From NCBI GenBank assembly GCA_015501595.1, contig JADNRX010000587.1, positions 1 to 31,255 on the forward strand: 31,255 nt of DNA. Direction: 5' to 3'. The notes beneath the pieces were generated by a model. It did no database searches. It was given only the letters and a program-made list of their open reading frames with translations, and was not told the origin of the DNA. Within the stretch, counting starts at the first letter, position 1, and every line of letters starts with the position of its first letter. Source of the DNA: Hymenopellis radicata (lineage: Eukaryota > Basidiomycota > Agaricomycetes > Agaricales > Physalacriaceae). Shown piece by piece: positions 15-31,016 of this stretch. The position numbers and the translations under genes are program-made.

Positions 15-23
15 GAATCCCAG
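15..23. repeat. Left 9-bp target-site duplication of the MULE
   Basis: GAATCCCAG lies directly outside the left terminal inverted repeat and is repeated exactly at 11533-11541 outside the right one. Perfect conservation suggests that insertion was not ancient. Confidence 0.88.
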
Positions 24-55
24 GAGTCCCTACTAAGCTGGTCTTTCGGGTGCCT
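24..55 (+). repeat. Left terminal inverted repeat of the MULE
   Basis: 32 bp starting GAG. The core at 38-55 (CTGGTCTTTCGGGTGCCT) is a perfect inverted match to 11501-11518. Mismatches are confined to positions 27-31 and 37. Similarity stops abruptly inward of 55. Confidence 0.88.
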
Positions 56-355
56 AGCGGCAGGAGAAGCCAGGTCAGATAAGACCAGGCGAGATAAGAT
101 TGGAAAACGTTTCTGATGCGCAGAGGTCGGAAACGTCAGTTTTACCACGTCATCTTCAGTCGGGCGTCGGGAAAGGCGCAGCTGCTATAATGTCACTTGT
201 CACACTATTCCAAGAAATATTCTAAACGTACCCGTTTCCTTCCTTCCTTCTTGGCACATCCAATAATGTTCACCGCCATGATTCTTCTTTCCGCCCTCAC
301 TTCCGTCTTCACTCCTTGAACGAAGCATCGAGGAGATATGTGGACTTGTTGGATA
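56..355. other. Left subterminal region of the MULE, non-coding
   Basis: No supportable gene is seen between the left terminal repeat and the first start codon at 356. This stretch probably contains the promoter of the first cargo gene, but no specific element could be identified. Confidence 0.4.
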
Positions 356-2219
356 ATGTCCGACTTCAACGCTGCCATTGTGCGCGCCCGCCGCCTCAAG
401 TCATATACCACAAGTGGACGTTTCTTCAAATCCAAGTCCCCATGCTCCTTTCCGAGATGCTCGCCCAAGCACTGGTGGTCGAAGACTGTACCGCGGTGGT
501 TACTCTTCCTACAATACGCGTTCCTTCCCCCATCCTTACGCTTCGCGGAATACCATCCATGGTGTTGTTGGAGGTGTCCAGCGTCAGCTTGATATCATCG
601 CCAATGAGCCCAGTTCAGCTGTAGTCGACGAGTTCCGGCGTCGTCTGAACGAGGGCAATGCCCAAGGCCTCATGCTCCACTTCAATAGGTCACAGGGGGT
701 TATGTCAGGATGGTTTAGGTAAGTGGTTCTGTTGAGCGTTCGTGACTATCACTCACTATTTCGTAGACCTTGCCGTGTTTTAGCCTTAGGCTGCCTGACT
801 CAGATGGGCGCTGGAGGTTTACAAGGGCATCCAGACTATACGCCTCCGACTTGCATCTATACTTTGAACCCCATCCTTACCAACAAGGAGTGCGAAATGG
901 AACTCCACTTGCGCAAGCGTCTTCCAGATCTTCCTGGTCTTCACGATTTCTTCCGATGCCCTCTTGGACACAGCCCATGCTATTATAGTATGTTCCTCAT
1001 CCTTGCACATTACCGCCATACTGATCCATTGCTAGTGATCATTCCTAAAATTCAACCGTCCGTTATCATTCATTCAGAAGAGGAACTGGAACAGGAACTT
1101 CGTGTGTGTATCCTCTTTTTTTCTGGCACCTTCTCTTACCCACTGCACAGTTGCATGATACATGATTCCCAGCGAGGAGGACTACAATAGTAAGATGTCG
1201 GTCTTACCATTTTTGCCTGTATGCTTACGGGATCACGTCTCTTGTCAGTCGAGGCTGAAGATATGCAGCAAGCTATAGAGGATGCTCGTCCATTGTCTGA
1301 GACCTTTGATCCACGAGTCATCCTTCTCTCCGATGTCAACCAACTGGACGATGAGAGCAAGATACTCGGTCATTACGCGTTCTACCCTCAAGGTGCTGCT
1401 ATAGCCCGTGCAACTAATGGTACTTCTGCTTTTCTTGATACTTGATTTGTGCTGAAACAGTTTTAGACCAAGCCTTAATCGCAGTCATCCAACAACAGCA
1501 GTCAGAGGGTGTATATAGACGTGCGTAAGCTTCCTTTATAACTTTCTTGGTCTAATCTAATTTCTAGGATCATTCCACGCTCATCCTGCCTACTCCATAT
1601 CATCTGCGTCACATCATCTATTGGCCCCTTATGATGCGCGCTAGAATCCCGGATGCGAGGACCTTCCTTGGACCTTCATTGAGAACTTCGACACTACTCT
1701 TGGACGTGCTATTCGTGAGATCAACTCATGTGAACTTCCCGCGACGTCGTGGCATCAAATCCAGGGCTGGACCATAGAGTGCAAAGCCTGTAAGCAGTAC
1801 TTCTCAGAAGAAGGATATCACGATCATATTCATCGTGGATTCTGCACGAACTGGATGACACCGACACCAGGTAGAAGTAGAACTGTCCCTCTTCGTAAAT
1901 ATCTGCTGATGGTTTCTGAATAGTTCGCGCTCAACACTCAGATATCAATGATGTGGAAGAGTTTCATTTTCGTACCTTTTTAAAAAGAGAAAGTATTCCA
2001 CAATTTGAAGAGTTCATGAATACACCCGTTGCATTGGCAATGATGGCATGGAATTCACGACTAGGAGTACCAAAGGACGTTTATACTATGATATTTACTG
2101 CTGCTACTTAGTGTGATACTTGTAGATTAGTTCATACTTTCCGTGCTTATCTAGCTCATCTCACTGCAGATGGAGACTGTGGGGACTTGGGGGAGAAGGG
2201 TGCTACCATTATTCAGTAA
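356..2219 (+). pseudogene. Zinc-finger-like cargo gene, copy 1, with two in-frame TAG codons
   Basis: A multi-exon reading frame can be followed from an ATG at 356 to a TAA at 2217-2219. Supported exons include one ending at 718, then 767-987, 1036 to about 1101, 1249-1419, 1461-1520, 1568-1870 and 1924-2219. All introns are 41-60 bp with GT-AG ends, and phases are consistent. The exon at 1568-1870 encodes a C2H2/C2HC-like motif: C-x2-C, then F, Y, H and C, around CKACKQYFSEEGYHDH. The last exon has a C-x2-C pair (CDTC). The frame is interrupted by TAG at 1642-1644 and again at 2109-2111, while flanking sequence stays in frame and resembles copy 2 downstream. I do not recognise the family by name. 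Its position inside the MULE and its zinc-finger-like motif suggest a DNA-binding or accessory element protein, which is inference. Some 5' exon boundaries (before 461 and near 1102-1172) are uncertain. Confidence 0.6.
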
Positions 2220-2477
2220 TAGTATCTGTTGTTTCTGAATGTGTAGTACTGAATTGATGTTTGTTTCTTGACGTCTAAAAGAATAACACTTCATCTTGTG
2301 GGCGGACGTCCTCAAATACTAATGCTTAGCTCGGGGCTCAGACATTGGTTTGCTTCGAAATTGGTGCATCATCGTGCACTGAGATTCTCAATGCCGCTTG
2401 ACTTGCTTTCGTTATCTTCCGCACGGAATGGAAACACCTCTGCTTAAAAAGAGAGCCTCTTCAGGGCTGATTAACTC

Positions 2478-3521
2478 ATGGCGAACTTTTTTAAGCTTTC
2501 TGCGTGTTCTGGTTCCCTCTACGAGTATCTCTTAGGTCCACTTCCATCCTCCTCTGCAGATCCTCCTTCCTCCCCGCTTGCACGCTACTCGACACTGCCT
2601 GCTCAGAATCAGAGTCTGGCCACATCTCCAACCTCGCCTACCGTTCATTTGTCATATGAAGACTTTGAAGAAGAACAAGCTGTCAAGACACTTCTCATGC
2701 TAAAGGATCCTCTTCCTCCTCGAGGCTTCTTCTCTGAGAAGGTTGCGATTGCTCATGCCAATCCAGATAGGCAACGTTTAATGCATCTGTAGATCATTAC
2801 TGATTTACCTCAGACCAAGAGATTATTCAGGATGTTATGAGCAAAGTACAACGCTGGTTACTTTGAGGGTGTGTGTGTTGATGTAATCTTGTCCCTGATT
2901 GTCTAACTTCTCAACAGAGTATCCTTCAGCGCATCTAGCCAGTCATTTACTTGATGACGGTCCTTTGTACAACCCTCGTATCCCCGCGATTGGTCATAGT
3001 TCTAGAACTATCTTAGCCCAGCCGGTGATGCTATTTCGCGCTTTGATTCCACAGAAGGCATTCCCAAAGAGACCTGGCTGTCACTAAAGATGTGGTCGAT
3101 GATTTGCAGCATCTGCAAGTGCTACTTTTCTGGAGATGGATACCTGGACCATGTCGTTGATGAGGCTTGCGGGAACTGGTATAAAAAATGGAGCGGTATG
3201 TGATCTTTTTAATGCTAATTTGAGTACATAGCTTATCGTGCAACAGTTGCATGTGATCATTATGCTTTCGATGAGGCGCATATGAAACATCCTATGGCAG
3301 TGCAGAGATGCACTGGTTCTCCTACGGAGCACGCGTTCTTAGAATGGAATTCCCGAGTTGGGGTACCAGAGGACGTTTGGCAAGTTCTCATTACTAGTGA
3401 GGCGTACTGTACGACTTGCGAGCTCATTCACTTTATTAAAGGTCATGAGCTGCATCTTGACTCTGATAGAGAATGCGGAGACATCAGACAAAGACACAAG
3501 GCGCGATGTGGTTGTATTTGA
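2478..3521 (+). pseudogene. Zinc-finger-like cargo gene, copy 2 (tandem paralogue)
   Basis: The 3' half is clearly a diverged duplicate of copy 1. The exon ending near 3196 encodes CSICKCYFSGDGYLDH, matching CKACKQYFSEEGYHDH of copy 1. After an intron of about 50 bp, the final exon (about 3247 to the TGA at 3519-3521) encodes EWNSRVGVPEDVW and a C-x2-C pair, matching AWNSRLGVPKDVY in copy 1. The exon beginning near 2921 resembles the copy 1 exon at 1568, but a reading-frame change is needed near 3025 to join it to the zinc-finger part. The region from ATG 2478 to 2792 is an open frame that only weakly resembles copy 1. The last exon is clean and lacks the TAG present in copy 1. Overall this is probably a partly decayed tandem copy; a functional shorter transcript cannot be excluded. 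Confidence 0.5.
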
Positions 3522-3588
3522 CTTCTATATCTTACTTCTTGAAAGTACTATGAAAGTGTATTGTACATAGTGAACGCGCCATCTGGTC

Positions 3589-5388
3589 TCACCCATTTCT
3601 CAGCATCAGCATTTCCTGAATGACCCTCAAAGCGCACCTAAATAAGAGTATCATATTCCGTCTCTGACGTTTGAAATATGGAGGCTTGATTAAATAAACA
3701 ACTGAACCACGCCCATGTCCGGCCACCCACTCTTCATCAGAGGTTTCACTAACCATGCCCAAGGGTTCAGAATTTTCCTGTGTTGGTTTCTCTCCATTGG
3801 GAGTAGTAACAATCTCGATGTCTCCTATTTCAATAGTGAAATCAATGTACATGAAATAACTGCAGGACTTATCTCGACGATCAACATTGAAATGAATAAA
3901 GAGAGCAGAGGGGTAGAGGAGGAATACGCCCGGAGGAAGTTCAATGCAGACTCCAGCTTCCCATATCACTAACCAGGCCTTTTCTCGATGGTTGAAGAAT
4001 CCGTAGACGAAGACGATACAAATGCCTAAGGCTAAGTTCTTTGCGTCGACGTGGGGATCACAGTATACGCACTGAACACCTGGCCGTGGGGCATTAAGAC
4101 ACCAGTTGTAGAATAGTCCATACTCTAGGCTCAGGTCGTAGTGCGCTCTTATATAGGCCATGCAGGCTTCGTATCATCAGGCGACCCCAGGAAAGTACTG
4201 CTCAAGAAGAGCATTGGCTAGCAAACTATAGCCAAAGTTAGAAGGAGAAAACTTGTATTCAAACTATTCACGTACTTGATCGCATAGAAGGCCGTACCCT
4301 TAGCAAAGAATTTCTTCAAGCGTGCCGCGTTCTCCCTATGCTATTGGGAGTAGGAAGGAATCTGATGGGGTGTGTCAGTAACTGAAGGTGTTCTGGGATC
4401 GTAGACACTTACAGTTTTATTGTTCCTATCAACACCGGCAATGCAAAACCAGTGTGATCCACGCCTGTTACTCTGCATAGCGTCCTCGCCCATGCTGCCA
4501 CAGGCGCGAACAAAATCACGGGCCTCTGCCAGAAACTGAGGCAGCAGTTGTCGCACGTTGTTCGTAATTCTTGAGCGATAGATGATAAGGCGGCCAGCAG
4601 CGTCCAATAAACGTGTAGCAACCCTGGCTTGGTGTTTGAAAGGCTAGATCAGAAAGGAAAGAAACGTACCCTTGGTAGGGGACGAGGCGAATGCCTGAGA
4701 GATGGCTCCAAATGACGTCCAAGGAGCCTGAGGCATGAGCCTCTCGTAAGTCGTTTACTGGGACGTTTTTGAGAACGGCATTCCCATCCACCACGTTTTG
4801 GTAACAGGGAGGTCCTCAGCAAGCAAATTGTCCTGCGCTTGAAGATATTCGTCTTGGGCCTCCTGCTTGGCTATCTTGCGATGGCGACGTCTAAAACTAC
4901 GACCGGCTTGACGAGACAGGGTCGGAGGGACCTCCAGGTTCAGAGGTGTCTCCGGTAAGGCTCTAGATCTGCAGGAGAGCATTAGTGCAGGTCCAAGAAC
5001 ATAAGTTGTCGGCTTCTTACTTGGGGGCGTAACTAACGGGTGGGACGTTGACTGTCGGTTCGGTCTTGGGTTTCTTGGTAGCGAGTGGGACATGGGAAGA
5101 CGAGCGGCGTTTAGAGGTGGAGGCGGCGGCTTGAGAAGCAGTGTTGGAGCCGGCGGCGAGAGCTGTCGTCGCGTCGCTGTCGTTTAGGATGGCTTGAATG
5201 ACTGGGTCTTGACTCCTGTAGTCCTGGTCCGCGTCGTTATGACGGAGTAAGGCGACGTCGAGCAGGCTAACAGAGAGCTTGAGCTCTGCGTCGTTGTCGC
5301 CAGGCTTAAGCTTGGTAGTGTAACTAGGCGAACGCGATGAGGATGATTTTGGGGGGAGTGGAGGCCACTCACTTTGGTTTAACGCCAA
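3589..5388 (-). pseudogene. TET/JBP-like 2-oxoglutarate/Fe(II) dioxygenase relative, broken
   Basis: Exons on the minus strand: 5388-5021, 4968 to 4670, 4623-4413, 4361 onward, and a 3' block at 4161-3589. The 3' block encodes DPHVD (an HxD iron-binding motif), a beta-rich stretch with a LVIWEAG segment, then LPPGVFLLYPSALFIHFN with a distal His. This is the order expected of a double-stranded beta-helix dioxygenase, and it resembles a family common in Agaricomycetes that I associate with TET/JBP-like proteins. Damage visible: a frame change near 4790, an in-frame TAG at 4341-4343, and two consecutive TGA codons (4174-4179) just upstream of the catalytic block. The N-terminus is low complexity and basic (SKRRSS, KKPKTE). 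The gene is convergent with zinc-finger-like copy 2 and lies inside the MULE. The family call is inference from motif order; the pseudogene status is seen directly. Confidence 0.55.
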
Positions 5389-5839
5389 AGAACGCGGTAA
5401 GGAGGTTCGCCAGCTTGAGTCGCGTCAACATGACGGCGACGGCGTCGAGAAGGTGGGCGGTGTGCACAGGTTCTGCAGCACGCTGCTTTGGTACTAACGC
5501 GAAGCTTTCCCGGAGACGTGTAGGTTGTTCTGCCAGGACCGTGTTAGGGCCCTTGAAGTTACACGTCTAGGGAGTGACCCAGAAAGACGCGCACCTATTT
5601 ATGCTAGAGCCACCGTCAACAAAGACGCGCCAAACAAGTCCACACGCGCGGTCCACACGTGAGATCGTGGAAGGAAAACAAAGAGCGTCGATATGTTTTC
5701 CGTTGTGTGGCTGGTTGCCTAATTCGGACAGGTCAATCTCTTTGTCCTCCGCCTTCACCACAGCAACTCCGTCGTCGCTGAATTAACGTTCGCTGTTTCC
5801 TGCGGACGCTGCTTTGGCCAAGCCTTCTCGCCCTTCGTC
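5389..5839. other. Intergenic stretch inside the MULE, no gene seen
   Basis: Lies between the start of the TET/JBP-like pseudogene (minus) and the first recognisable part of the coatomer alpha fragment (plus). Open frames here show no family features and overlap on both strands. Probably the 5' flank of the oxygenase relative plus the capture junction. Confidence 0.35.
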
Positions 5840-7080
5840 TCGTCTCAGCCCGACCCATCATCGACGCGAGTTCCATACGGCATGCCGGTATGTCTTGTTT
5901 TTTTACGCATATACGCGTCTTTTGACGACGTTCTGCTCTCATTTCTCGCAGGCCTTGCCTTCCGCCTGACGCAGCCTTTGCTGGCCGCCGCACTCCACAA
6001 CGGAAGCGTACAACTCTGGAACTACAGAATGGGAGTGCTCGTTGACCGCTTCGAGGAACACGAAGGCACGTCGTGATGCCCTGGACAGCACTTTGAAGCT
6101 GACGCTTTTACTGTAGGACCTGTCCGAGGTGTCCATTCCATTCGAGCCGAGCCCTGCTAGTTTCTGGAGGCGACGACTATAAAATCAAAGTCTGGGGTGC
6201 GTTGACCGGTGTCAAGGGGATAAAAGAGCTAACAGGCATCACAGACATTCGACCGCAGAATAGGCGCTGTCTGTTCACGCTCCACGGCCATCTCGACTAT
6301 ATCCGAACCGTTCAATTCCATCATGAAATGTCCTGGATTGTGAGTGACAATTCTTCATCTCTGCAAAAAAATGCTAAATACGCCTAGCTCTCCACGTCCG
6401 ACGATCAAACGATACGCATATGGAACAGCACATCTCGCCAGTGCATCGCTGTCCTAACTGGCCATACCCACTATGTCATGTCGGCCTTCTTCCATCCCAA
6501 AGACGACCTCATCGTATCCGCCTCCATGGACCAAACGGTCCGTGTATGGGACATCTCAGGTCTTCGAAAGGGAGGGTCGTCCAGCAGCGGTCCTTGAACT
6601 TTGAGACCTTTGACACGTTCTCTACCGTCAAGTACGTGCTTGAAGGTCACGATCGCGGTGTCAACTACGCCGTCTTCCATCCCACTCTACCTTTGATTCT
6701 CTACTCTGGAGAATGAGCGAGACTAAAGCTTGGGAGGTAGACTCGTGCCGCGGTCATTTCAACAACGTATCCAGCGCTCTTTTCCACCCTAAATCCGAAC
6801 TCATCGTGTCTTGTGGTGAAGACAAGACTGTTCGCGTCTGGGACTTGGCCAAGCGGACAGCTATCCAAACATTCCGCAGAGAACACGACCGCTTCTGGGT
6901 CCTCGCCTCACACCCCAATCTCAACCTCTTTGCTGCCGGTCACGACAGTGGTCTGATCGTGTTCAAGCTGGAACGCGAACGCCCAGCATTTGCCGTTCAC
7001 GACATGCTGCACTACATTCGCGACAAGTACGTTCGCTCGTATGACTTCAATACTGGATCGGATATCGGTCTCTTGAGTGT
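5840..7080 (+). pseudogene. Captured, decayed fragment of coatomer subunit alpha (N-terminal WD40 repeats)
   Basis: Translations in shifting frames give the WD40 propeller of alpha-COP in order: [141 protein letters not shown] and [20 protein letters not shown]. Alpha-COP is a housekeeping subunit of the COPI vesicle coat of over 1100 residues; only about 350 residues' worth is present and there is no start or C-terminus. Introns are retained (5885-5952, 6066-6116, 6199-6246, 6342-6388 region), so this is a DNA-level copy, not a retrocopy. Damage: a GC instead of GT donor at 6066, a one-base frameshift near 6137, a frame change near 6595, and loss of the end of one WD repeat near 6715. An intact functional copy presumably exists elsewhere. 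Confidence 0.85.
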
Positions 7081-7109
7081 ACGCATAGGACGACGCTGGT
7101 GTTTTCCTC

Positions 7110-7734
7110 TATTCAACGTACTGTCTTCCCCAAGGGTAAGCTATTTGTTCGCCATTGCCTTTCACGATACTCACCTGGCATGTTGCAGATGTTTTCAACG
7201 TTGACGGCGCCATCGAGCTCGGCCAGCGCCAGTCCCAGTACGTTGACTTCTGGTTATCGACCATGTCCTTACGATTCCTCATAGACTGATCATGATTTTC
7301 GATTGTCAATTTCACTAGGGCACCGCCAGCGACGGATCCGAATTCAGAGGGCGCATCGACATCCCCAAGGTCTCGCACGAATACACGGTCGTTGCTACCA
7401 TCGCCGCCCCTCCAAAGTTCCTCAAGAAGCCCGACGTCAAGGCTGTTAATACAACGACGGTCACCGTTGAAGGAAACTTCGCTGCCAGCGCGGATGACTT
7501 GTTGGGCTTGCTCATGAACGAGCAGTGCATTCCCATGTCGACGAGGACGCCTGCTCAGGTAAGTACCTTGCTTCCCTTGTTTGGCAGCGTGCTAAGATCA
7601 GGTCTTAGAGCGCCGCGAAAGCAGATATGGACTATTTCCTGTTCGGCGGTGCAATCAAGGGCAAGTACCTCGAGTCTCTTTTCCTCCCCGCGAACGACAC
7701 TAGCATCAATGAAGTTGGTATAGCGCGTAGTTAG
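7110..7734 (+). pseudogene. Captured, decayed fragment of AHA1 (Hsp90 ATPase activator)
   Basis: Reading frames give two parts of the AHA1 family. The end of the N-terminal domain is seen as DGAIELGQRQS, LIMIFDCQ, GTASDGSEFRGRIDIPKVSHE; the start of the C-terminal SRPBCC domain is seen as TVTVEGNFAASADDLLGLL and DMDYFLFGGAIKGKYLESL. AHA1 stimulates the Hsp90 ATPase; the full protein is about 330-350 residues. Here the beginning, the middle (a jump straight after the KVSHE segment) and the C-terminal end are missing. There is an in-frame TAG at 7316-7318 and a premature TAG at 7732-7734. Introns survive (about 7136-7188, 7240-7286, 7560-7608). It follows the coatomer fragment on the same strand, although the two genes are unrelated, so the pair looks like a chimeric capture. 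Confidence 0.75.
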
Positions 7735-7781
7735 AATAGTTTCAATGATATTCTGTTCAAGCTCAAAAGTGTGAATTTCTT

Positions 7782-10700
7782 TTACTGACTGTTCACGAGG
7801 TCGTCTACCGACTGAAATATAGGTATTTGCCCCGATCCAGACTCAAGGGCTTCTCCGGCTGAAAGCTCTCGTGTAACTGCATTGTACGCACGTTCCAGCA
7901 CACTCTTCGCCGTTGCCCATTTCTTCTGAACCGTCTTCAAATGAGGCCTCCTGTTGTACTCCTGTTGTGCAGCGTCATTCCGAACAAGTGCCGCCTTGTA
8001 TTTGTCCCAGAGCGCCAGGCACTTATCATTGTGTGCTTGAATCTTCGTGTCCAGAGCGTCAAACTGCTTATGACGGATGGCGACTAGAAGCTTTATTAGC
8101 TGACCCACTCGACCAAGATCTACCAGCCACATACATTTTCTCCGGAGTGTCTGGACAGTGTTCTCGGTTGGATGCCCGGCTTTATAAGACGGTCTGATTC
8201 CATGCATCTCATGCACCTGATGGTCCGTAAGTAACAGCTTTGCACGCATAAGCTCAAGCCTCACGTTTAAAGTACTCAGTTTCATGATGTCGTAGTGCTG
8301 GGCTTTCTGCAGGCCGTTGACCAGTGTACACTTTGTCCCCTCTTCATTAACATCGTGGTGAACGATTTCCGCGATGTTTGTATGGCGAGGAGCAGCCCTC
8401 CAGATGGCCTGATGAATGTCGCTCCTTTCCCAACAGATACCTTGAAATACAAAATCACCGTCGACTTTGTTTTTGACCCAATCTATCAGGCCATGAGCAA
8501 CGAGCATGCAGCACAGCTAGAACTGGAACGTACCACGACCACTCTTCCCACCCAGCCTCTGAATCTCACCAACGGTACCCTCAAAGTCTGTGTGCTCCAG
8601 GCAAGACAAACTACGCATCAAGTTACGCACTTCCTCCGTGACATTACACTGTCGAATGTTACGGAAATAGTGGATTTCACATGCGCGGAACAGCCGATGC
8701 AGGTGCTCGTACAGGGAGAGCTGAGAGACTAACTTGGAAGGATGAGCAAGGTCGAGGCGTACAGGAAGAAGTTGCGCCTTCTTTTGAAGGAACAATCCAA
8801 GCCCTTGAGATCATATTAGCTTGACCGTCATGAATGCTGAAAGTAAGGTCACCCTTTGCCTGCCCCGGATGATGATCTCCGATCCATAGGAGAATCAATC
8901 CGTGAAAAAAGTCTCTGTGGGGTGCATGTAGATGATAAAAGCGCAGTTCATACCCACAGTCCTCTTGGAAGATGATATCAATCTCTTCAAATAGCCGACA
9001 GTGGGTTTCCGCTGTCTCAGAAGTGACAAAGGCGCGACAAAAGGTGATGCCTCAAGAAACCTTAGAAGCTTTCCACAGTGAGTAAAGATAGAGTACTCAC
9101 TCTGATGTGATTCAGAATCCCATGCAGCTAACTCGAATTCCTGATAGCCAATGACACGTTTAAAGGCAATATCACTCTGAAGATAAGACGCCATTGCAAG
9201 TCGACGACTGCCACTTGGAGACATGCATATCACTATTTTGAGTGATTCATGCTCGTGATCCTCGTCGTCCGAGTATTCCAGACCCGTTGAAGGATCCAAC
9301 TCAAGAATTCGCCGAATGTACTTGGCCTCTACAGGCAGATCTTTATCTTGAAGGGACTTGAGGTGACGTACGCCTAGAATAGAGATGAGGATCACGTATA
9401 TGAAAATAGCGACGCTCACCTTGTAATCCTGTGCCATAAGGATAGAATAGAGCCTTCACCTGGTCAATGTACGAGCGCAGATGGGCTCTATTAGCCAGAG
9501 AGACGTGAAGATCTCCTAGAGTGGGGCAAACTGCGCGCGGAAAGACTTCCTGCAGAAAACTTTTCAACACCGGATGGCGAAGAAATCGACGTGCAGTCAA
9601 GCCCGCCAAGTCTGCCCCAGTCTTTTCAAAAAGCTGAAATAGGCAGTCTCGGAGTCTGGGAGGCGTCCTTGTTGGGAGTGGAACAGGATGGGTATGCAGA
9701 CCGCGAATAGTCACCAGAATGAAAGGTGAACGGACGCGATACTCCTGTACTGGTTCGAACATTCGGAATGTGACAGCGCATCGGGTCTTAATCATCTGAG
9801 GTTGATAGAGGCGTCCTTCAGCATCACGATGATCGAATGCTAGAGGAACAAATCAGATTGAGAACTCGCAAACTTGCAGTTTACAACTTACGGCAGACTA
9901 CTCTCTTTGAGGAAAAGTTCGCCACTGTCTGACACTCAACTAAACGGCCATATCTGGCGCATTTAGCGTCATGCTCAATGCGTGTAATCTCGTCTTCATC
10001 CTCTTCCAGAACGGCCTCCAGAATCCACTGCAATACATCATACGAGCAATCGAGGGCCATCCAGAAGTGATCACGATCTGTCTTGAAGCAGTGATGTTCG
10101 CAGCTATAGCATTGTTAGAGACGCACATAGAATAAGACTTCATACTCACGTGAGAATGGGAGTCCCATCGTTGAGCTCACTCAAAACAATTCGACCTTCA
10201 CACCGAGGTGTTCTAGGCTGATAACCGCGACGAATTCGCTCGTTGTGAGCATTAACGAAATCAACAGCAATCTGTTCGGAGGGTGATAGTGCTGTAACGT
10301 GGTGTTGTACAGAAGTACAGCCTGCACGACGAATAGCACTCAGAAGAGCAGCAGTCTTCTTGAAGATGGTAGCACGGGGAGAGGAAGATGTTACTCGAGT
10401 TTCACGATCAAGAGCTAGTCGGGCAGAGACATCTGCTCGGGTAGCGGTTGAATGAGGGCGACAGAGTGAGATTTGATTTGCGTTTGGACAGATTTTTGAA
10501 CCCTGACCTAAGAGATTTTCATTCTGTGATTCAACATTTCGCTAAGGGGTAAAGAACGTACACGTATAGTGTCTCTCTATGCAAGGCACATCAAGACGTG
10601 TCTGTTCATCCAGATTTAGGGTACAGGACTCGTCTGTCTGCCCTACAGGTGTTCGACCAGAAGGGCTTCCACGGGAATATGCGAAGTCAAGCATAGGATT

Positions 10701-11012
10701 TCTCCAATTAGCAGGGTCTACACGAAACAAGTAGCCAACAGGATTGGGAGAGCCAGACTCTGGTAGATCAACATAAGCATCGGAGCTATCATACACGTAG
10801 AGTGTCGAGAGGATAGTTCGACTGTTAATCTGAACATTATCATATGTGCGCGAGGGTGTTGAATTTCCAGAGAAGCTGTCGGCAAGACCCGTGAAAGGGA
10901 GTGCTGGATCAACATTCAATTGGGATGGAGGGCTAGGAGTGGCGTGTTCAACAGTGATGTCCTGTTCAGGGGTTGGATTTAGGAGCGAGGATATTTGCAT
11001 TCGCCCAGACAT
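7782..11012 (-). CDS. MULE-type transposase, nine exons, 944 aa
   Basis: Exons on the minus strand: 11012-10562, 10507-10150, 10103-9892, 9839-9420, 9373-9101, 9050-8853, 8803-8534, 8482-8265, 8216-7782. All eight introns are GT-AG, 46-54 bp, and every phase joins without a stop; the CDS totals 2835 bp. Landmarks: Cys/His-rich N-terminal half (SKICPNANQ near residue 155; CEHHCFKTDRDHFW near 270), GLHTHPVPLP in exon 4, SLANRAHLRSYI, then SDIAFKRV (Asp near 548), GDHHPGQAKGLG (Asp near 630), C-x2-H-x3-N as CEIHYFRNI (679-687), and RHTNIAEIVHHDVN (Glu near 766). This D...D...CxxH...TNxxE order is that of the Mutator transposase core, and the 9-bp target duplication of the surrounding element fits. 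The last 140 residues are charged and helical, possibly a coiled coil. Likely the active transposase of the element. The start codon is the first ATG of the open exon and is not independently confirmed. Confidence 0.88.
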
Positions 11013-11500
11013 GAAGATAGAAGGTAGGATTAATTCAAAACATACCGACTAATCTACAACACGAACAGTATAGGGCGTCGAGCCCTAACTCACTTGACCG
11101 AATCTCCCCAAGCCCCCGTCTTACAACCCATCCGCACTCAACGCGCCTCGTTGCACCGTTCCAGACTACTTGTCGCCAATCCCGCTCCGTTTTGAATCAA
11201 GGCGGATGGCTGGTCAAGACAAGACACCCGGATCCCGCCCTCATCGCGAGGAGGATAGAAGACAACCATCACATAAATTCCGATACAGGCGCATGCAAAA
11301 GGTGTTTGACACATATCCGTTGTGATGGGAAGAAAAAAGCAATGGGACACCAGTCACACAGCTCCGTATTTATTCTTAAGGACTATAAACAACAAGTACG
11401 GGAGGGCGGGTGATGGCGGTCAATGAGATCCGCCAAGGACGGATTGTGTCACTGACAAGACGGATCCCGAGGATTCCGCATGCTATGCGCGTGGGGTGTC
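11013..11500. other. Right subterminal region of the MULE, non-coding
   Basis: Between the transposase start and the right terminal repeat no supportable gene is seen. It should include the transposase promoter on the minus strand; no convincing motif could be pinned down. Confidence 0.4.
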
Positions 11501-11532
11501 AGGCACCCGAAAGACCAGGTTAGTGTAACCTC
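11501..11532 (-). repeat. Right terminal inverted repeat of the MULE
   Basis: Inverted partner of 24-55. The plus strand carries the 18-bp core AGGCACCCGAAAGACCAG at 11501-11518 and ends CTC at 11532, directly followed by the second copy of the 9-bp target duplication. Confidence 0.88.
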
Positions 11533-11541
11533 GAATCCCAG
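11533..11541. repeat. Right 9-bp target-site duplication of the MULE
   Basis: GAATCCCAG, identical to 15-23 and in the same orientation. It marks the right-hand boundary of the transposon. Confidence 0.88.
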
Positions 11542-13031: not shown

Positions 13032-14096
13032 CTAGACTTTGCCCAAGGTCTGTTCCTTCGCCACTAGCTCCGCCGTGACGGTCTTAATAACGTCCTTTTT
13101 CACCAAATCATTGTACCATCCATCCAGCCGCACCGTCCAAAAGGTCTTATCCTCATCCGCATCCGTCCCATACCAACAGCCCGCCAATCCGCCATAGACA
13201 GCCGCCACGGTATCGGCATCATTTCCCAAGTTCGCTGCGCGTAAAGCGCCAGCATCGTACGCGTCCGTGGAAAAGAAACAGAACAACGCCGCGACAAGCG
13301 TATGCAGAACATGTCCAGTGGAAGGAAGTATGTCTTCCTCTGGCAGCTTATCCTCCTTCATCCCAAGAATGACCTTCATAATGGGATGCTCTGTATCGAG
13401 ATCATCGCCCGTATACGCCAGCGCCTGTCGCAGTTTCGCGTTCTGGTACGGAAACTCGGAAAAGTAGTGCAAGACATCCCGCTTGGTCATCGTCTCTCCA
13501 TTCGCGGCAGCACGCATGACCCGCACCACGGCGCCCGTCCACACCTCACAGGCCTCTTGGCATATCTCATTCGGGTGCGTCGTTAGACTGCTTCGCCTCG
13601 CCAGCTCCCTCGCTGCCTTCTCATCGCGCCAGTATAACACTCCCACGGGGATAACACGCACCAAGCTCCCGTTACCCGAACACGCTTCTCCACCCAGACT
13701 TTGCTGAATCGTCTTCAACGCGCCCGGAGTAGGATCTTTGACGTAGATGCCGACTGCGTGTAGAATCGTATTCCCAATGTCGAAGCATTTCCCTGTCGCA
13801 CTGAGTACGCCATCCTTCCACCACCGAGTATACGCTGCAAGTTGATCCTCCTCGTCGAATCCCTTGTCGGACGCGATGGAGCGCGCGAGGCAGAGCGTCA
13901 TGCTCGTGTCGTCCGTCCAGACCCCTTTTGGTAGGTGGAGGTTAGGATTGCGGATCATTCGGTCGACGGAGGGGAATTTAAACCGGCGGTGGCATTCGTT
14001 AGGACTGCCTAAAGCGTCGGCGAGAGCCGTGCAGAGGATAGCGCAGCGAATCTTGGTCGAAGGAGGGGCGGCCGTGACGATTTGGGAGAGAGACAT
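13032..14096 (-). CDS. ADP-ribosylglycohydrolase (ARH/DraG family), copy A, 354 aa
   Basis: Intronless 354-aa protein. Family landmarks: LADALGSP (residues 25-32), VWTDDTSM (59-66) with the metal-binding Asp-Asp-Thr, a SGNGSLVRVIPVG block in the middle, and GNDADTVAAVYGGLAG near residues 291-306, which supplies the second metal-binding D-x-D-T. This is the all-helical dinuclear-Mg fold that removes ADP-ribose from proteins or small molecules; the real substrate cannot be told. I chose the Met at 14096 because the second copy aligns with it exactly to the same length, whereas sequence upstream differs between copies. Odd: the usual ALG-x-P-x-E-F segment reads ALGSPNECH here, while copy B keeps ALGGPAEFH. 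Copy A may be diverging in substrate specificity. Likely cytosolic, as no signal peptide is seen. Confidence 0.87.
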   Translation of the reverse strand: MSLSQIVTAAPPSTKIRCAILCTALADALGSPNECHRRFKFPSVDRMIRNPNLHLPKGVWTDDTSMTLCLARSIASDKGFDEEDQLAAYTRWWKDGVLSATGKCFDIGNTILHAVGIYVKDPTPGALKTIQQSLGGEACSGNGSLVRVIPVGVLYWRDEKAARELARRSSLTTHPNEICQEACEVWTGAVVRVMRAAANGETMTKRDVLHYFSEFPYQNAKLRQALAYTGDDLDTEHPIMKVILGMKEDKLPEEDILPSTGHVLHTLVAALFCFFSTDAYDAGALRAANLGNDADTVAAVYGGLAGCWYGTDADEDKTFWTVRLDGWYNDLVKKDVIKTVTAELVAKEQTLGKV

Positions 14097-14240
14097 GGTG
14101 GTTCGGTGCAAGTTAAGCGGGACGATCAAAGTCAAACATTCCGCTAGGATCTGTAATATTAACACAGTGTCTGCATGCCTGGTGGGGAGGAGATCTGGCT
14201 ATCTTTGACCCTAACAGGAAGTGCCAACTAGTGATCCAGC

Positions 14241-15144: not shown

Positions 15145-15420
15145 GCTGATCAACCCCCTCTTACCCTCAAAGTACAGGAAATACGCAGACCGACTTTGCC
15201 AGTACAAGACACGAGCAATACAGGTATGAACTCCCATCGTCTATCTATCTATATGCCATTTTCCAGTATTAACCTCAGCAGTGCCTTCGGTACCCAGCTG
15301 AGTAATACCCTTCCTTCCTTCCTTCCCTCCACCTTGTCAACTCGTGATTGGCTGTGGAATAAGGGCTTGCCTTACGCAGGCCCTTCGCGCACTAGGTACC
15401 ATCCGCGGCTGAATAGCGGC
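15145..15420 (+). repeat. Left arm of inverted duplication
   Basis: About 110 bp (15145-15255) around CTTTGCCAGTACAAGACACG and CAATACAGGTATGAACTCCC is repeated in inverted orientation at about 17417-17535. Weaker similarity continues through CTCGTGATTGGCTGTGGAAT (about 15342) against the partner near 17380. The left arm carries about 60 bp and 25 bp of extra sequence relative to the right arm. Confidence 0.7.
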
Positions 15421-17299: not shown

Positions 17300-17540
17300 G
17301 CTGTTTAGGCACCCTCATCCTCCTTGAGCGGATTTGGCCGATACTCACGAGAAGGGAGTGCTTAGTGCGCCAATATTCCACAGCCAGTCACGAGCTGACA
17401 AGGTGGTAATACTGGTACTAACATATAGATAGATAAGTAGATGATGGGAGTTCATACCTGTATTGCTCGTGTCTTGTACTGGCAAAGTCAGTCTGCACAT
17501 TTTCTTCACTTTGAGGGTAAGAGGGGCTGATCAAGGGACT
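17300..17540 (-). repeat. Right arm of inverted duplication
   Basis: Inverted partner of 15145-15420. The best conserved part is 17417-17535, containing GGGAGTTCATACCTGTATTG and CGTGTCTTGTACTGGCAAAG. Together the arms bracket the 407-aa gene. No clear target duplication was found outside the arms. Confidence 0.7.
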
Positions 17541-23055: not shown

Positions 23056-23665
23056 TTAAAGTACGCAGCTTTTTGAGAAATCTGGAAGCGCGCGTGAGTG
23101 AGTCAACGGTGCTTGAAGAGTAATAGAGAATGCGCACCCTTCTATCGGTCCGTAGTACATATCAGATTCTGAAAAATAGGTAGCTCAAACCATCGAAAGA
23201 AGAATTCACAGAAAGCTCACGCTGCGCCACATTCGCCAACGAAAACGCTGGATTGAAAAGCTTCCTCAACCGCTGATGGGTATCCCCATACGTCGTCATC
23301 ATCCCCGTGTTTCCTGCCATGATCCTCAGCAGCGTCTCGATGTACGGCGCCTTATCCCAGTCCGCCCAATTACGGTCAAGGATCTGTGACAGTGCCTCCT
23401 CGTCCTTGATTACGAGACGCTCCATCCCCAGCGGGGCGATGACCCGTACGATGCTCCCGTACCGCTTGAACCATGCTTGTTGAATGGAGCCGACATTGGG
23501 TCCATGCAGGGTGTTGAGTTGGCCGAAGAGAGGATGACCTACAGGAGGACCGGGGATATGTTGGAGAGGCGAAAAGTAACGAGGGTAGAGAACGATTTTG
23601 AAAAGACTGTATACTAATGTCGGAATACTTAGTGGGCGGAGTATGAGTAAAGGAAGAACGAACAT

Positions 23666-23938: not shown

Positions 23939-25003
23939 CTAAACGTTCCCCAAAGCTTGTTCCTTCGCCACCAACTCCTCCGTCACGGCCTTTATAACAT
24001 CCTTCTTCACTAGGTCTTTATACCATCCATCTAGCCTTAGCGTCCAAAAAGTTTTATCCTCGTCCGCATCTGTCCCATACCAGCAGCCAGCCAATCCGCC
24101 ATAGACAGCCGCCACGGTATCAGCGTCACTCCCCAAGTTCGCTGCACGTATGGCTCCAGCATCATACGTGTCTGTAGAAAGGAAACAGAACAACGCCGCG
24201 ACGAGCGTATGCAGAACATATCCGGTAGATGGAAGTATGTCTTCCTCTGGCAGTTTTTCCTCCTTCATCCCAAGGATAACCTTCATGATGGGATGATTCG
24301 CGTCGAGATCATCGCCCGTATACGCCAGCGCCTGTCGCAGTTTCGCGTTCTGGTACGGAAACTCGGAAAAGTAGTGCAAGACATCCCGCTTGGTCATCGT
24401 CTCTCCATTCGCGGCAGCACGCATGATCCGCACCACGGCGCCCGTCCACACCTCACACGCCTCTTGGCACATGTCATTCGGGTGCGTCGTGAGACTGCTT
24501 CGCCTCGCCAGTTCCCTCGCTTCCTTCTCATCGCGCCAGTATAACACTCCCACGGGGATAACACGCATCAGACTCCCATTACCCGAACACACTTCCCCAC
24601 CCAGACTTTGCTTGATCGTCTTCAGCGCGTCGGGGGTCGAGTCCCCGGCGTAGATGGCGACTGCTTGTCGAATCGTATTCCCGATGTCGAAGCAATTCCC
24701 CGTCGCACTAAGCACGCCATCCGTCCACCACCGAGTATACGCTGCAAGTTGATCCTCCTCGTCGAATCCCTTGTCGGACGCGATGGAGCGCGCGAGGCAA
24801 AGCGCCATGCTCGTATCGTCCGTCCAGACCCCCTTTGGTAGGTTGAAGTTAGCATTAGGGAGCATTCGGTCGACGAAGGGGAATTTAAAGCGGCGGTGGA
24901 ACTCGGCAGGACCGCCTAAAGCGTCAGCAAGAGCCGTGCAGAGGATGGCACAGCGAATCTTGGTCGAAGGAGGAGCGATGGTGACGATTTGGGAGAGAGA
25001 CAT
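23939..25003 (-). CDS. ADP-ribosylglycohydrolase (ARH/DraG family), copy B, 354 aa
   Basis: Same length as copy A with no gaps. By eye about 40 of 354 residues differ, so close to 88-89 percent identity. It keeps the first metal-binding motif VWTDDTSM and the second as GSDADTVAAVYGGLAG (copy A has GND). The segment ALGGPAEFH is closer to the family pattern than copy A. It has the same orientation, is intronless, and starts at the Met of MSLSQIV. The 5' flank is also duplicated but carries a 14-bp insertion near 25022. The middle third of the gene is identical at DNA level to copy A over 124 bp (24303-24426). Expected role: hydrolysis of ADP-ribosyl bonds in the cytosol or nucleus; substrate unknown. 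Confidence 0.87.
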   Translation of the reverse strand: MSLSQIVTIAPPSTKIRCAILCTALADALGGPAEFHRRFKFPFVDRMLPNANFNLPKGVWTDDTSMALCLARSIASDKGFDEEDQLAAYTRWWTDGVLSATGNCFDIGNTIRQAVAIYAGDSTPDALKTIKQSLGGEVCSGNGSLMRVIPVGVLYWRDEKEARELARRSSLTTHPNDMCQEACEVWTGAVVRIMRAAANGETMTKRDVLHYFSEFPYQNAKLRQALAYTGDDLDANHPIMKVILGMKEEKLPEEDILPSTGYVLHTLVAALFCFLSTDTYDAGAIRAANLGSDADTVAAVYGGLAGCWYGTDADEDKTFWTLRLDGWYKDLVKKDVIKAVTEELVAKEQALGNV

Positions 25004-26745
25004 GGTAGTTCGATGCAAGTTACATGATAGGAATCAAGCGGGACGATCAAAGTCAAACATTCCGATAGGAGGGCTGTGATACCAAGACGATGCCTACACG
25101 CCCCGTGGGGAGGAGAGCTGGCTGCATTACTGGTGCTTTGGCTATCTTCCACGGTAACAGGAGTACCAACGGGGTATAGAATCTGTATTCCGAACTTGGA
25201 TTGTGACTGAGGTGCGACGTCATTGTAGTGGGTCTGCTTCGAGGAACAATCCGAACATTCCGTTTGTCCACAGACCATTTAGGGCTGGTGGTGTGGGCAC
25301 ATACGAACAACACCTGGTGAATTGTAACTTAAGAAGAAAGATTAACATGGTTGATTCAATATCAATGCATCCAAAGAACTCACAAGATATATATGACTTT
25401 TTGGCGGTGGTTCGTGGTACCCGCTGTAGAGTACGTTTCAAAAGACATGCGGTCCACCTGTGCGGAGGGTCAAGCAAATAGGTGGGTGGATAGTACAGCT
25501 GGTGGGCAATGAGTGAGTACCAAATGTCTTCCGGAGGCGGCTATTTACTCACCGTCGCATTTATTACAGAATTCCTTTCCAAGGCGCCTTTTGTGCGCGG
25601 TCAACAGCTCGCCGGCCGGGGGAGGCCATTCAAATGCGGGACTGGTGGTGGTCGGGAAAAAAAAAAGCGCGTGCATTATGTAATTCCAACAGCCGATGAA
25701 TATCCGACGGCCGCCAATCATACCGACGGTCTGTCTTTTGCAAGCACTGACCACCAAACTTGGCTTTTGACCACCACGACGACCTTTTACCACCCACCCA
25801 TCAGCACCCCACCATCGACCACCATTTATGCCACCTTTGCCTTACCTGCATTTCTTTGCGCGTTGAAGGCCACGACCCGAGCTCGATAGGCGTGTGCTAC
25901 GTTCTGCTGTGACCCGAGCTCGATAGGCACAAGCATTTTTTGTCCTTTGGTCAGACTACAATGGTCTCCTGTTTTGAGGACGTTGAAAGCTACGACCCGA
26001 GCTCGTTAGGCGTATGCTACGTTCAGTTTGATAGCCACGACCCGAGCGCGATAGGCGTGTGCTTGTCTTGCCGTTACCCGAACAGAAAATTGATAGGCAA
26101 GCCGAAAATGTATGCTGATTTTGTGAAACAAACCACGCCCCGAGCTTGTAAGAACGACGATGTTCTATTTCCTCTCTCTATCCTGCATCCTGTCTGTTTT
26201 CGGGGACCATAAATTTTTCGGTGGCTGCTCCTGTACAGTTTGGCGGCGATTGCCGGTCGACGAAAGTATGCCGAATAAGCCGAGCTCTTCCTCTCGTTTG
26301 AACTTCCTATCTCCTTGGATGCTCCTGCCGGCCCTTGAAGTTCTACCGCCGTCGGCGTACGGTGAGATCGGCTTCCTGGAATGGTAGAGAGCGCAAGAGA
26401 CGTACGGGTGATATCTCACGATGTTATCGCGTGCGCACCTCTTGCGACCAGCCGGTCCTGTGGGCCAATTGGCTGTGTAACAACAACAACAACTTTCGCT
26501 GCTTCGGTAAACATCCTGACAATGTTGCTAGCTATTCCTGCAGATGATTATGTTGTTCGCAATGTTCTCAGGCTTGCGCGCGTGATTATTTGGTATAGTA
26601 TGTACCGTCCTGCACCAGCTGCTCGCGCTGTAAAAGCATAAAAGAATGGATGCTGATGTTCACTGAGCCCGCAGTTCAAAACTAAGTCGAGTAGTAGTTT
26701 CAGTACGTGGAAAGTTCTGCTAACTGGTGATTAGGACTTCACTTT
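25004..26745. other. Gene-poor stretch with degenerate repeats
   Basis: The first about 170 bp is duplicated flank of the ADP-ribosylglycohydrolase. Beyond it open frames are short or low complexity (Thr/Pro-rich around 25750-25850, poly-A at 25661-25670) and show no family features. The repeat cluster at 25863-26150 lies here. Confidence 0.4.
25863..26150 (+). repeat. Degenerate dispersed repeats, about 20-45 bp units
   Basis: ACGACCCGAGCTCGATAGGC and close variants begin at about 25872, 25909, 25992 and 26037, with a weaker copy at about 26134. The copies at 25863 and 25982 are similar over about 45 bp, including TGCTACGTTC. Spacings are 37, 83, 45 and about 97 bp. Three of the copies are in the same frame and would encode (Y/H)DPS(S/A)(L/I)GVC, but no gene context supports coding. 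Confidence 0.7.
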
Positions 26746-30228: not shown

Positions 30229-31016
30229 CTACCAAGAAATTGCGCCATCAGGTCCCCAGAATACACCTACCAATAACAGCGTCAATACATATGCAATGAG
30301 GCGAACAACGCTCACGTACACGTTCTGTCCTTCTCCTCCGCCCACGGGGCAATGACGTCCGCTCCTTCTTTCCACGTCCTACCTCCCGGTGCAAACCCAT
30401 TTAACTGGGTTGAGACGAAGCCGGGTGAGACAGCGTTCACCTTAACCTTGCCCTCCAACGTCTTCGCCAGCGAAACCGTATACGAGTTCGCCGCCGCCTT
30501 GCTCGTGTTATACGCAATCCAATCGTTGAACATTTCCGCCCCCTTACTCGCCCTGAATAGAGTACTCCCCAAAGCAGTGGTCACATTGACGATACACGCC
30601 TTTCCCGCGGGAGCACAAAGGAGGAGGGGCACGAACGCCTGGCAGACGGTGATGAGACCGAAGAAGTTGACGGCCATGGCGTCGTGGATGTTTGGCAGCC
30701 GCTCGGTGAGCGGCCCAGAGCTGTGCTGCATCAGCCCAACGCCCGCGTTGTTAACCAAGGAGTCTAAACGCCCCTCAGCCTTCTCTACAACGTCCTTCGC
30801 AGCGGCGACAGATTCGGGCGACGTCACGTCGAGGAGAACGAAGCGCACATCCAAACCCTCGGCGACGAGCTTTGCTTGGGCGGCTAGCCCTGCCTCCTGT
30901 TTCCGTGCAGCGAGATAGACACGGTGCCCTTTCTCTGCCAGACTCTTGACGATTTCGAATCCAATGCCGGTATTGGCTCCAGTGACGAGGATTACGCGTT
31001 TGTAGGTGTCGGACAT
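30229..31016 (-). CDS. Short-chain dehydrogenase/reductase (SDR), 244 aa
   Basis: Two exons: 31016-30320 and 30266-30229, with a 53-bp intron (GTACGT...TAG) that joins in phase; the last residues are FWGPDGAISW and the stop is TAG. Motifs: the NAD(P)-binding TGANTGIG at residues 12-19, LDVTSPESV, LVNNAGVG (NNAG at 89-92), the active-site Y-x3-K as YNTSK (169-173), and NAVSPGFVSTQLNGF after it. The Rossmann fold and order match the classical SDR family, with similarity to carbonyl-reductase-like members. Residue R38 in AARK suggests NADPH preference, which is inference. Odd: the stretch that normally carries the catalytic Ser (NVSS) reads NVTT. The C-terminus is typical. Substrate unknown; likely cytosolic. 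Confidence 0.88.

Follow-up and report, generated by a model that had tools for sequence, protein, structure and literature searches.

What kind of element occupies the first 11.5 kb of contig C948 (JADNRX010000587.1) of the mushroom Hymenopellis radicata, and which of the genes inside it belong to it? The window analysed here is this whole contig (31,255 nt), from a genome of 75.5 Mb in 1,405 contigs; other C-numbers denote contigs of the same genome. Bases 24 to 11532 form a DNA transposon whose ends are inverted repeats and whose target duplication measures 9 bp. The element is likely Mutator-like, and holds a transposase (gene 1), a predicted TET-like Fe(II)/2-oxoglutarate dioxygenase (gene 2) and a zinc/c-SKI-like protein (gene 3). 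What is new here is the pairing of a Mutator-like transposon with what looks like a standing TET-like gene, a gene that an earlier note on this DNA, made from the letters alone, had not recognised.

Element ends, other insertions and an unoccupied site

The terminal inverted repeats (TIRs) are identical at 26 of 32 positions, and at 23 of 24 in their inner core. Directly outside them lie identical 9-mers, GAATCCCAG, which occur nowhere else in the window on either strand; the probability of a chance 9-mer match at two given places is 3.8e-6. These observations confirm the matching ends and perfect 9-bp duplication described in the earlier note. Genome-wide, GAATCCCAG is commoner than its pattern read backwards (657 occurrences on both strands vs 127) and may belong to a repeat or mark a favoured target.

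A genome search found the end core at 13 places with at most two mismatches. The earlier note had looked to other copies with different 9-bp flanks, and to an empty site, for support. Four further insertions have both ends and their own duplications of 9-10 bp (Table 1). Across all five insertions, including that in the window, the duplications measure 9, 9, 9, 9 and 10 bp, and the TIRs pair at 22-27 of 32 positions without gaps. The copies on C58 and C851 are 97% alike with different duplications; therefore, these short copies have moved more than once. Two incomplete copies were also seen: C192 repeats the insertion of C1096, shares its flank on the transposase side (~97%) and is cut by the contig end, and C505 retains a left end with ~640 bp, one block at 93% and another at 97%.

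An unoccupied homologue was found on C158, where window bases 1-12 match exactly and are followed by 5 bases and then by a right-flank match from 11549 (two blocks, 94% and 98%). Since the insertion point there has 5 bases instead of the 18 expected from the window minus the element, and GAATCCCAG is absent, we conclude that this is a diverged empty site and not a perfect one.

Table 1. Positions of the element's features in the window, and insertions elsewhere in the genome.
Feature	Position or length	Strand	Duplication	Basis
Left target-site duplication	15..23	.	GAATCCCAG	identical 9-mer
Right target-site duplication	11533..11541	.	GAATCCCAG	identical 9-mer
Left TIR, 32 bp	24..55	+		match to right end; core recurs at other insertions
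Right TIR, 32 bp	11501..11532	-		match to left end
Gene 1, transposase (predicted 8 exons, 960 aa)	7782..11012	-		splice model; BDZ89DRAFT_904984 is a partial model
First predicted catalytic Asp, D548	9171..9173	-		column 28/28 D
Second predicted catalytic Asp, D630	8875..8877	-		column 27/28 D, one gap
Predicted catalytic Glu, E766	8367..8369	-		column 27/28 E, one gap
Gene 2, TET-like Fe(II)/2-oxoglutarate dioxygenase	3592..5431	-		predicted fold of relatives
HxD metal-binding motif (HVD), gene 2	4045..4053; codon of second His begins 3894	-		columns of alignment A2
Two in-frame TGA codons, gene 2, upstream of metal-binding motif	4174..4179	-		C697 relative open there
Gene 3, zinc/c-SKI-like protein	357..3518	+		homology of exon pieces to BDZ89DRAFT_1038518 (P0107) in the C1096 copy
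Coatomer alpha (COPA) fragment, frame-broken, apparent intron kept	5926..7188	+		homology to C717 gene
Aha1-like gene fragment	7183..7668	+		78-87% to C636, C1166, C1218
Insertion on C1096	11,715 bp		CCATGACGG	both ends
Insertion on C707	1,223 bp		ACAGAATCC	both ends
Insertion on C851	1,001 bp		CCATTCGCA	both ends
Insertion on C58	991 bp		TTAGAAGGAT, 10 bp	both ends

The transposase and its family

Gene 1 is open throughout in our splice model, with no stop, and the window copy may still make transposase. The first five introns match in place those of the C1096 copy when compared by eye. The proportions of nonsynonymous and synonymous differences (pN and pS) are 0.20 and 0.81 over 630 codons; these are reported in place of the NG86 synonymous distance (dS), which is saturated.

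We aligned 28 of 60 transposase relatives (alignment A1), from a search that scored the ~8,000 candidates sharing most words. The gene 1 product is predicted to carry a DDE triad of D548, D630 and E766, assigned from conservation and from how strands and helices follow one another in the structural model, rather than by superposing a known active-site structure. C, H, C and HxH columns are conserved in 27-28 of the 28 rows, and Pfam GCM matches one row at E 0.29. Conserved C..H and C..C..HxH patterns are also found in Mutator-like elements (MULEs), and the columns here may correspond to the N-terminal WRKY/GCM1-type zinc finger of that group. When the transposase model was compared with known structures by VIA-align, three ISCth4 entries (IS256 family) ranked first. 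Mutator-like elements (MULE/MuDR) and the bacterial IS256 family are kin, and the target duplications of the former are 8-11 bp, mostly 9.

The Pfam MULE profile matches none of the 28 aligned relatives, and searches for transposase profiles in Pfam (single exons, six family proteins and all 28 rows) and NCBIfam (all 28 rows) gave nothing above chance. Foldseek with the whole transposase model returned no match below 0.001, and a PDB sequence-profile search with A1, and with the gene 2 alignment A2 described below, returned nothing relevant. Because no MULE profile matches in 28 relatives, sequence does not establish the family link. The earlier note's Mutator-like element with an intact MULE-type transposase therefore stands in part: the gene is intact, and the duplications and the ISCth4 fold agree with it, but the missing profile leaves the family link softer than was stated.

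The same missing profile favours a transposase superfamily not yet described, or a remote branch of KDZ, hAT or P, whose resemblance to Mutator would be one of duplication length only and whose TET-like gene would have been gained as in other fungal TET-bearing transposons. Also on its side are the VIA-align scores of IS256, Hermes and the P element, which lie within ~3 Z units of each other, and one row of A1 near KDZ (PF18758, E 0.071). However, ISCth4 ranks first by fold, the conserved C..H and C..C..HxH columns are MULE-like, and all five duplications fit Mutator/IS256 better than Kyakuja (7 bp), Zisupton (8 bp) or hAT (8 bp; 5-7 bp in subgroups), as these lengths are given in the consulted sections of Kojima 2025 (PMC12730594). 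We consider this alternative somewhat unlikely. Membership of KDZ itself is not supported, as PF18758 matches none of the other 27 rows and the duplications are 9-10 bp, not 7 or 8.

Genes 2 and 3 as parts of the element

A second full-length copy, on C1096, has the same three-gene order, and the window is colinear with it across all three genes in blocks at 65-80% DNA identity. The pieces of gene 3 are colinear with the C1096 element by tblastn, and in the window this gene is broken by an in-frame TAG at 2109-2111 and perhaps by others. P0107, the 813-aa protein annotated on C1096, has repeated C..C..H..C motifs and matches c-SKI_SMAD_bind at 28.5 bits (cut-off 25). A search for relatives of gene 3, blind to distant ones, returned P0107 alone. 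Compared with the C1096 copy, pN and pS are 0.35 and 0.85 for gene 2 and 0.36 and 0.71 for gene 3 (384 codons), counted on tblastn pieces that possibly include some intron codons.

Across the whole genome, 86 transposase matches and 102 gene 2 matches, from a search that scores best candidates only, were grouped by eye into 14 and 53 loci respectively; single partial transposase matches on C496 and C1283 were omitted. Gene 2 lies within 7 kb of seven of the 14 transposase loci, a limit set after seeing the lists, and in all seven it is downstream on the same strand. Co-location is expected at ~1.3% per locus (binomial P 1.6e-10, or P 2.4e-7 for five of 12 without the window and C192), but the loci are not all independent: C1096/C192, C25/C1173, C796/C637 and C391/C1362 each resemble a single locus present twice, and some loci are probably alleles. 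Of the seven transposase-gene 2 pairs, those on C25 and C511 are weak, with gene 2 matches of 34-35% over 61-63 aa (E ~1e-4). The remaining seven transposase loci had no gene 2 match, and none was seen on C1173 and C637. Genes 2 and 3 have persisted in copies that are deeply diverged, and they have the look of permanent components of the element.

A TET-like dioxygenase gene

BDZ89DRAFT_1146276 (P0063) is the annotation of the N-terminal part of gene 2, and the relatives found for this family carry the database names 'hypothetical' or 'uncharacterized'. Structural models predict that the family has a TET/JBP-type double-stranded beta-helix fold. The name "TET-like" rests on this fold because Pfam Tet_JBP matches none of the 32 relatives in alignment A2 (drawn from 46, again with ~8,000 candidates sharing most words scored). 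The metal triad HxD...H is conserved in A2, with the first H and the D each in 29 of 32 rows (two gaps and one other row) and the second H in 31 (one gap). R466, present in 29 rows with three gaps, is a candidate 2-oxoglutarate-binding Arg picked by conservation only. Since the two TGA codons precede the metal-binding motif, the window copy probably no longer makes the dioxygenase.

It should also be noted that ~30 genome loci (e.g. C161, C1229 and C556) form a second, more distant TET-like group, at 25-43% and mostly over ~60 aa. A reading of the 4344-4643 exon as a Ulp1 protease (Pfam C48, E 0.23) was dropped when a gene 2 relative folded TET-like.

The gene 2 product could instead be a TET-fold enzyme acting on another substrate (for instance RNA, 6-methyladenine or a hypermodified base), for transposition or host control and not for removal of 5-methylcytosine. 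The distance of gene 2 from known TETs in sequence, including the missing Tet_JBP profile, is consistent with this, and CMD1, an enzyme of a different reaction, is also among the structural matches of the family. Other activities are left open for divergent types in the consulted sections of Kojima 2025 (PMC12730594). We think another substrate doubtful, at about the same level as a new superfamily.

Captured host-gene fragments

Between genes 2 and 1 lie pieces of two host genes. The COPA fragment is 95% identical to the C717 gene over the main block and 80% in a second block, and in PDB one exon has coatomer alpha among its top matches. The naming of the Aha1-like piece rests on the C636 copy, which matches Pfam Aha1_N at 2.6e-14; the window piece itself reached only E 0.71 against PDB. 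Some ten partial copies of this segment (C636, C1166, C1218, C774, C485 and others) occur in the genome at 77-87%, as if amplified.

The C192 copy has a COPA piece, 84% identical to C717, in the same gap as in the window, while its partner on C1096 has none; three reading frames lying within or reaching across the corresponding part of C1096 gave no Pfam match. Therefore, unlike genes 1-3, the capture varies between copies. The two near-identical copies of this insertion (~97%; C192:3367-4163 and C1096) differ in COPA, perhaps because alleles captured or lost it, or because of a join made in assembly.

The pieces of COPA and Aha1 resemble captured cargo, as the earlier note had proposed for the element's other gene-like blocks; genes 2 and 3 seem not to fit that description. 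If the element were of Pack-MULE type, with the TET-like and zinc genes caught by chance, host-gene fragments between TIRs would be expected; COPA and Aha1 are such fragments, and COPA is present in the window and C192 but not in C1096. Genes 2 and 3, however, have kept their position and orientation in the deeply diverged C1096 copy, with pN much lower than pS, and gene 2 also lies next to other transposase loci, always oriented alike. Chance capture is thus largely refuted for genes 2 and 3, where we find it improbable, and stands for COPA and Aha1.

A chance inverted-repeat pair around ordinary host genes has a negligible probability and is refuted: although inverted 24-mers with at most one mismatch occur at three places in the real window, two of them (15185/17473 and 19778) unrelated to the element, none arose in 30 dinucleotide shuffles, five insertions share the end core with different flanks, and an empty-site homologue exists.

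The right flank of the window

Outside the element, the 15185/17473 24-mer belongs to a second inverted repeat of ~59 bp (15185-15243 / 17438-17496), 2.3 kb across. The flank also has two ADP-ribosylglycohydrolase frames at 13035-14165 (-) and 23942-25018 (-) (Pfam PF03747, E 7.5e-58 and 6.7e-62), a cytochrome P450 piece at 23165-23665 (-) and a short-chain dehydrogenase frame at 30315-31016 (-).

Proposed mechanism and significance

We consider it probable that the element is moved cut-and-paste by its own predicted Mutator/IS256-type DDE transposase and that the TET-like gene 2 family helps such elements escape methylation silencing. Judging from fold and motifs, the transposase would cut at the 32-bp ends and join the element to staggered 9-bp target cuts, and the gene 2 protein would oxidise 5-methylcytosine on element DNA, by which such elements would likely escape silencing by DNA methylation. 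The zinc-containing gene 3 protein may help by binding DNA. More tentatively, and somewhat short of an even call, these elements may be a Mutator/IS256-class mushroom lineage that joins its transposase to a fourth transposon-borne TET type (HxD, missed by the profile) and a c-SKI-like zinc protein, erases its own methylation and captures host genes.

When fungal transposons carry TET genes, these have been interpreted as a weapon against silencing by methylation. If our reading is true, the association of TET genes with transposons is wider than the eleven lineages listed so far (see below) and is hidden by annotations; the dioxygenase is so divergent that the Pfam profile misses it. With both open and interrupted dioxygenase frames in a single genome, the escape idea would become testable, since methylation and expression of the copies could be compared.

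Comparison with known systems

The element resembles MULE/MuDR transposons (including fungal Hop) and the IS256 family in its 9-bp duplications, TIRs, predicted DDE triad, C..H columns and fold nearest ISCth4. It differs from them in its short TIRs (32 bp), in matching no profile, and in its extra TET-like and zinc genes; plant MULE TIRs are longer than those found here.

TET/JBP genes are reported from eleven lineages of fungal DNA transposons (Kojima 2025, PMC12730594). Mutator/MuDR is not among these in the consulted sections, where the words Mutator and MULE do not occur and MuDR comes up only in connection with other genes against silencing. A literature search on fungal or basidiomycete Mutator, MULE, MuDR, KDZ and TET found no other such element by title or abstract opening, among the matches listed for open-licence papers. 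The transposons described in those sections share with ours a TET/JBP-fold dioxygenase beside a transposase, also in Agaricomycetes. Here, however, the duplication is 9-10 bp and the gene 2 family matches no Tet_JBP profile; the PE type described there has HxE, whereas HxD is found in 29 of 32 relatives here.

The introduction of the same paper (PMC12730594) describes an anti-silencing protein in plant Vandal MuDR and a SET methyltransferase in Phytophthora MuDR. These are likewise Mutator-class transposons carrying a gene against epigenetic silencing, but the enzyme here is of TET fold, a predicted DNA-base oxidase. Finally, Pack-MULEs and the capture of histone H3 by fungal hAT elements (PMC6710886, as far as consulted) also place host-gene fragments between TIRs. 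The captured histone H3 copies are intron-free, whereas the COPA piece here has an apparent intron and the element keeps its own transposase.
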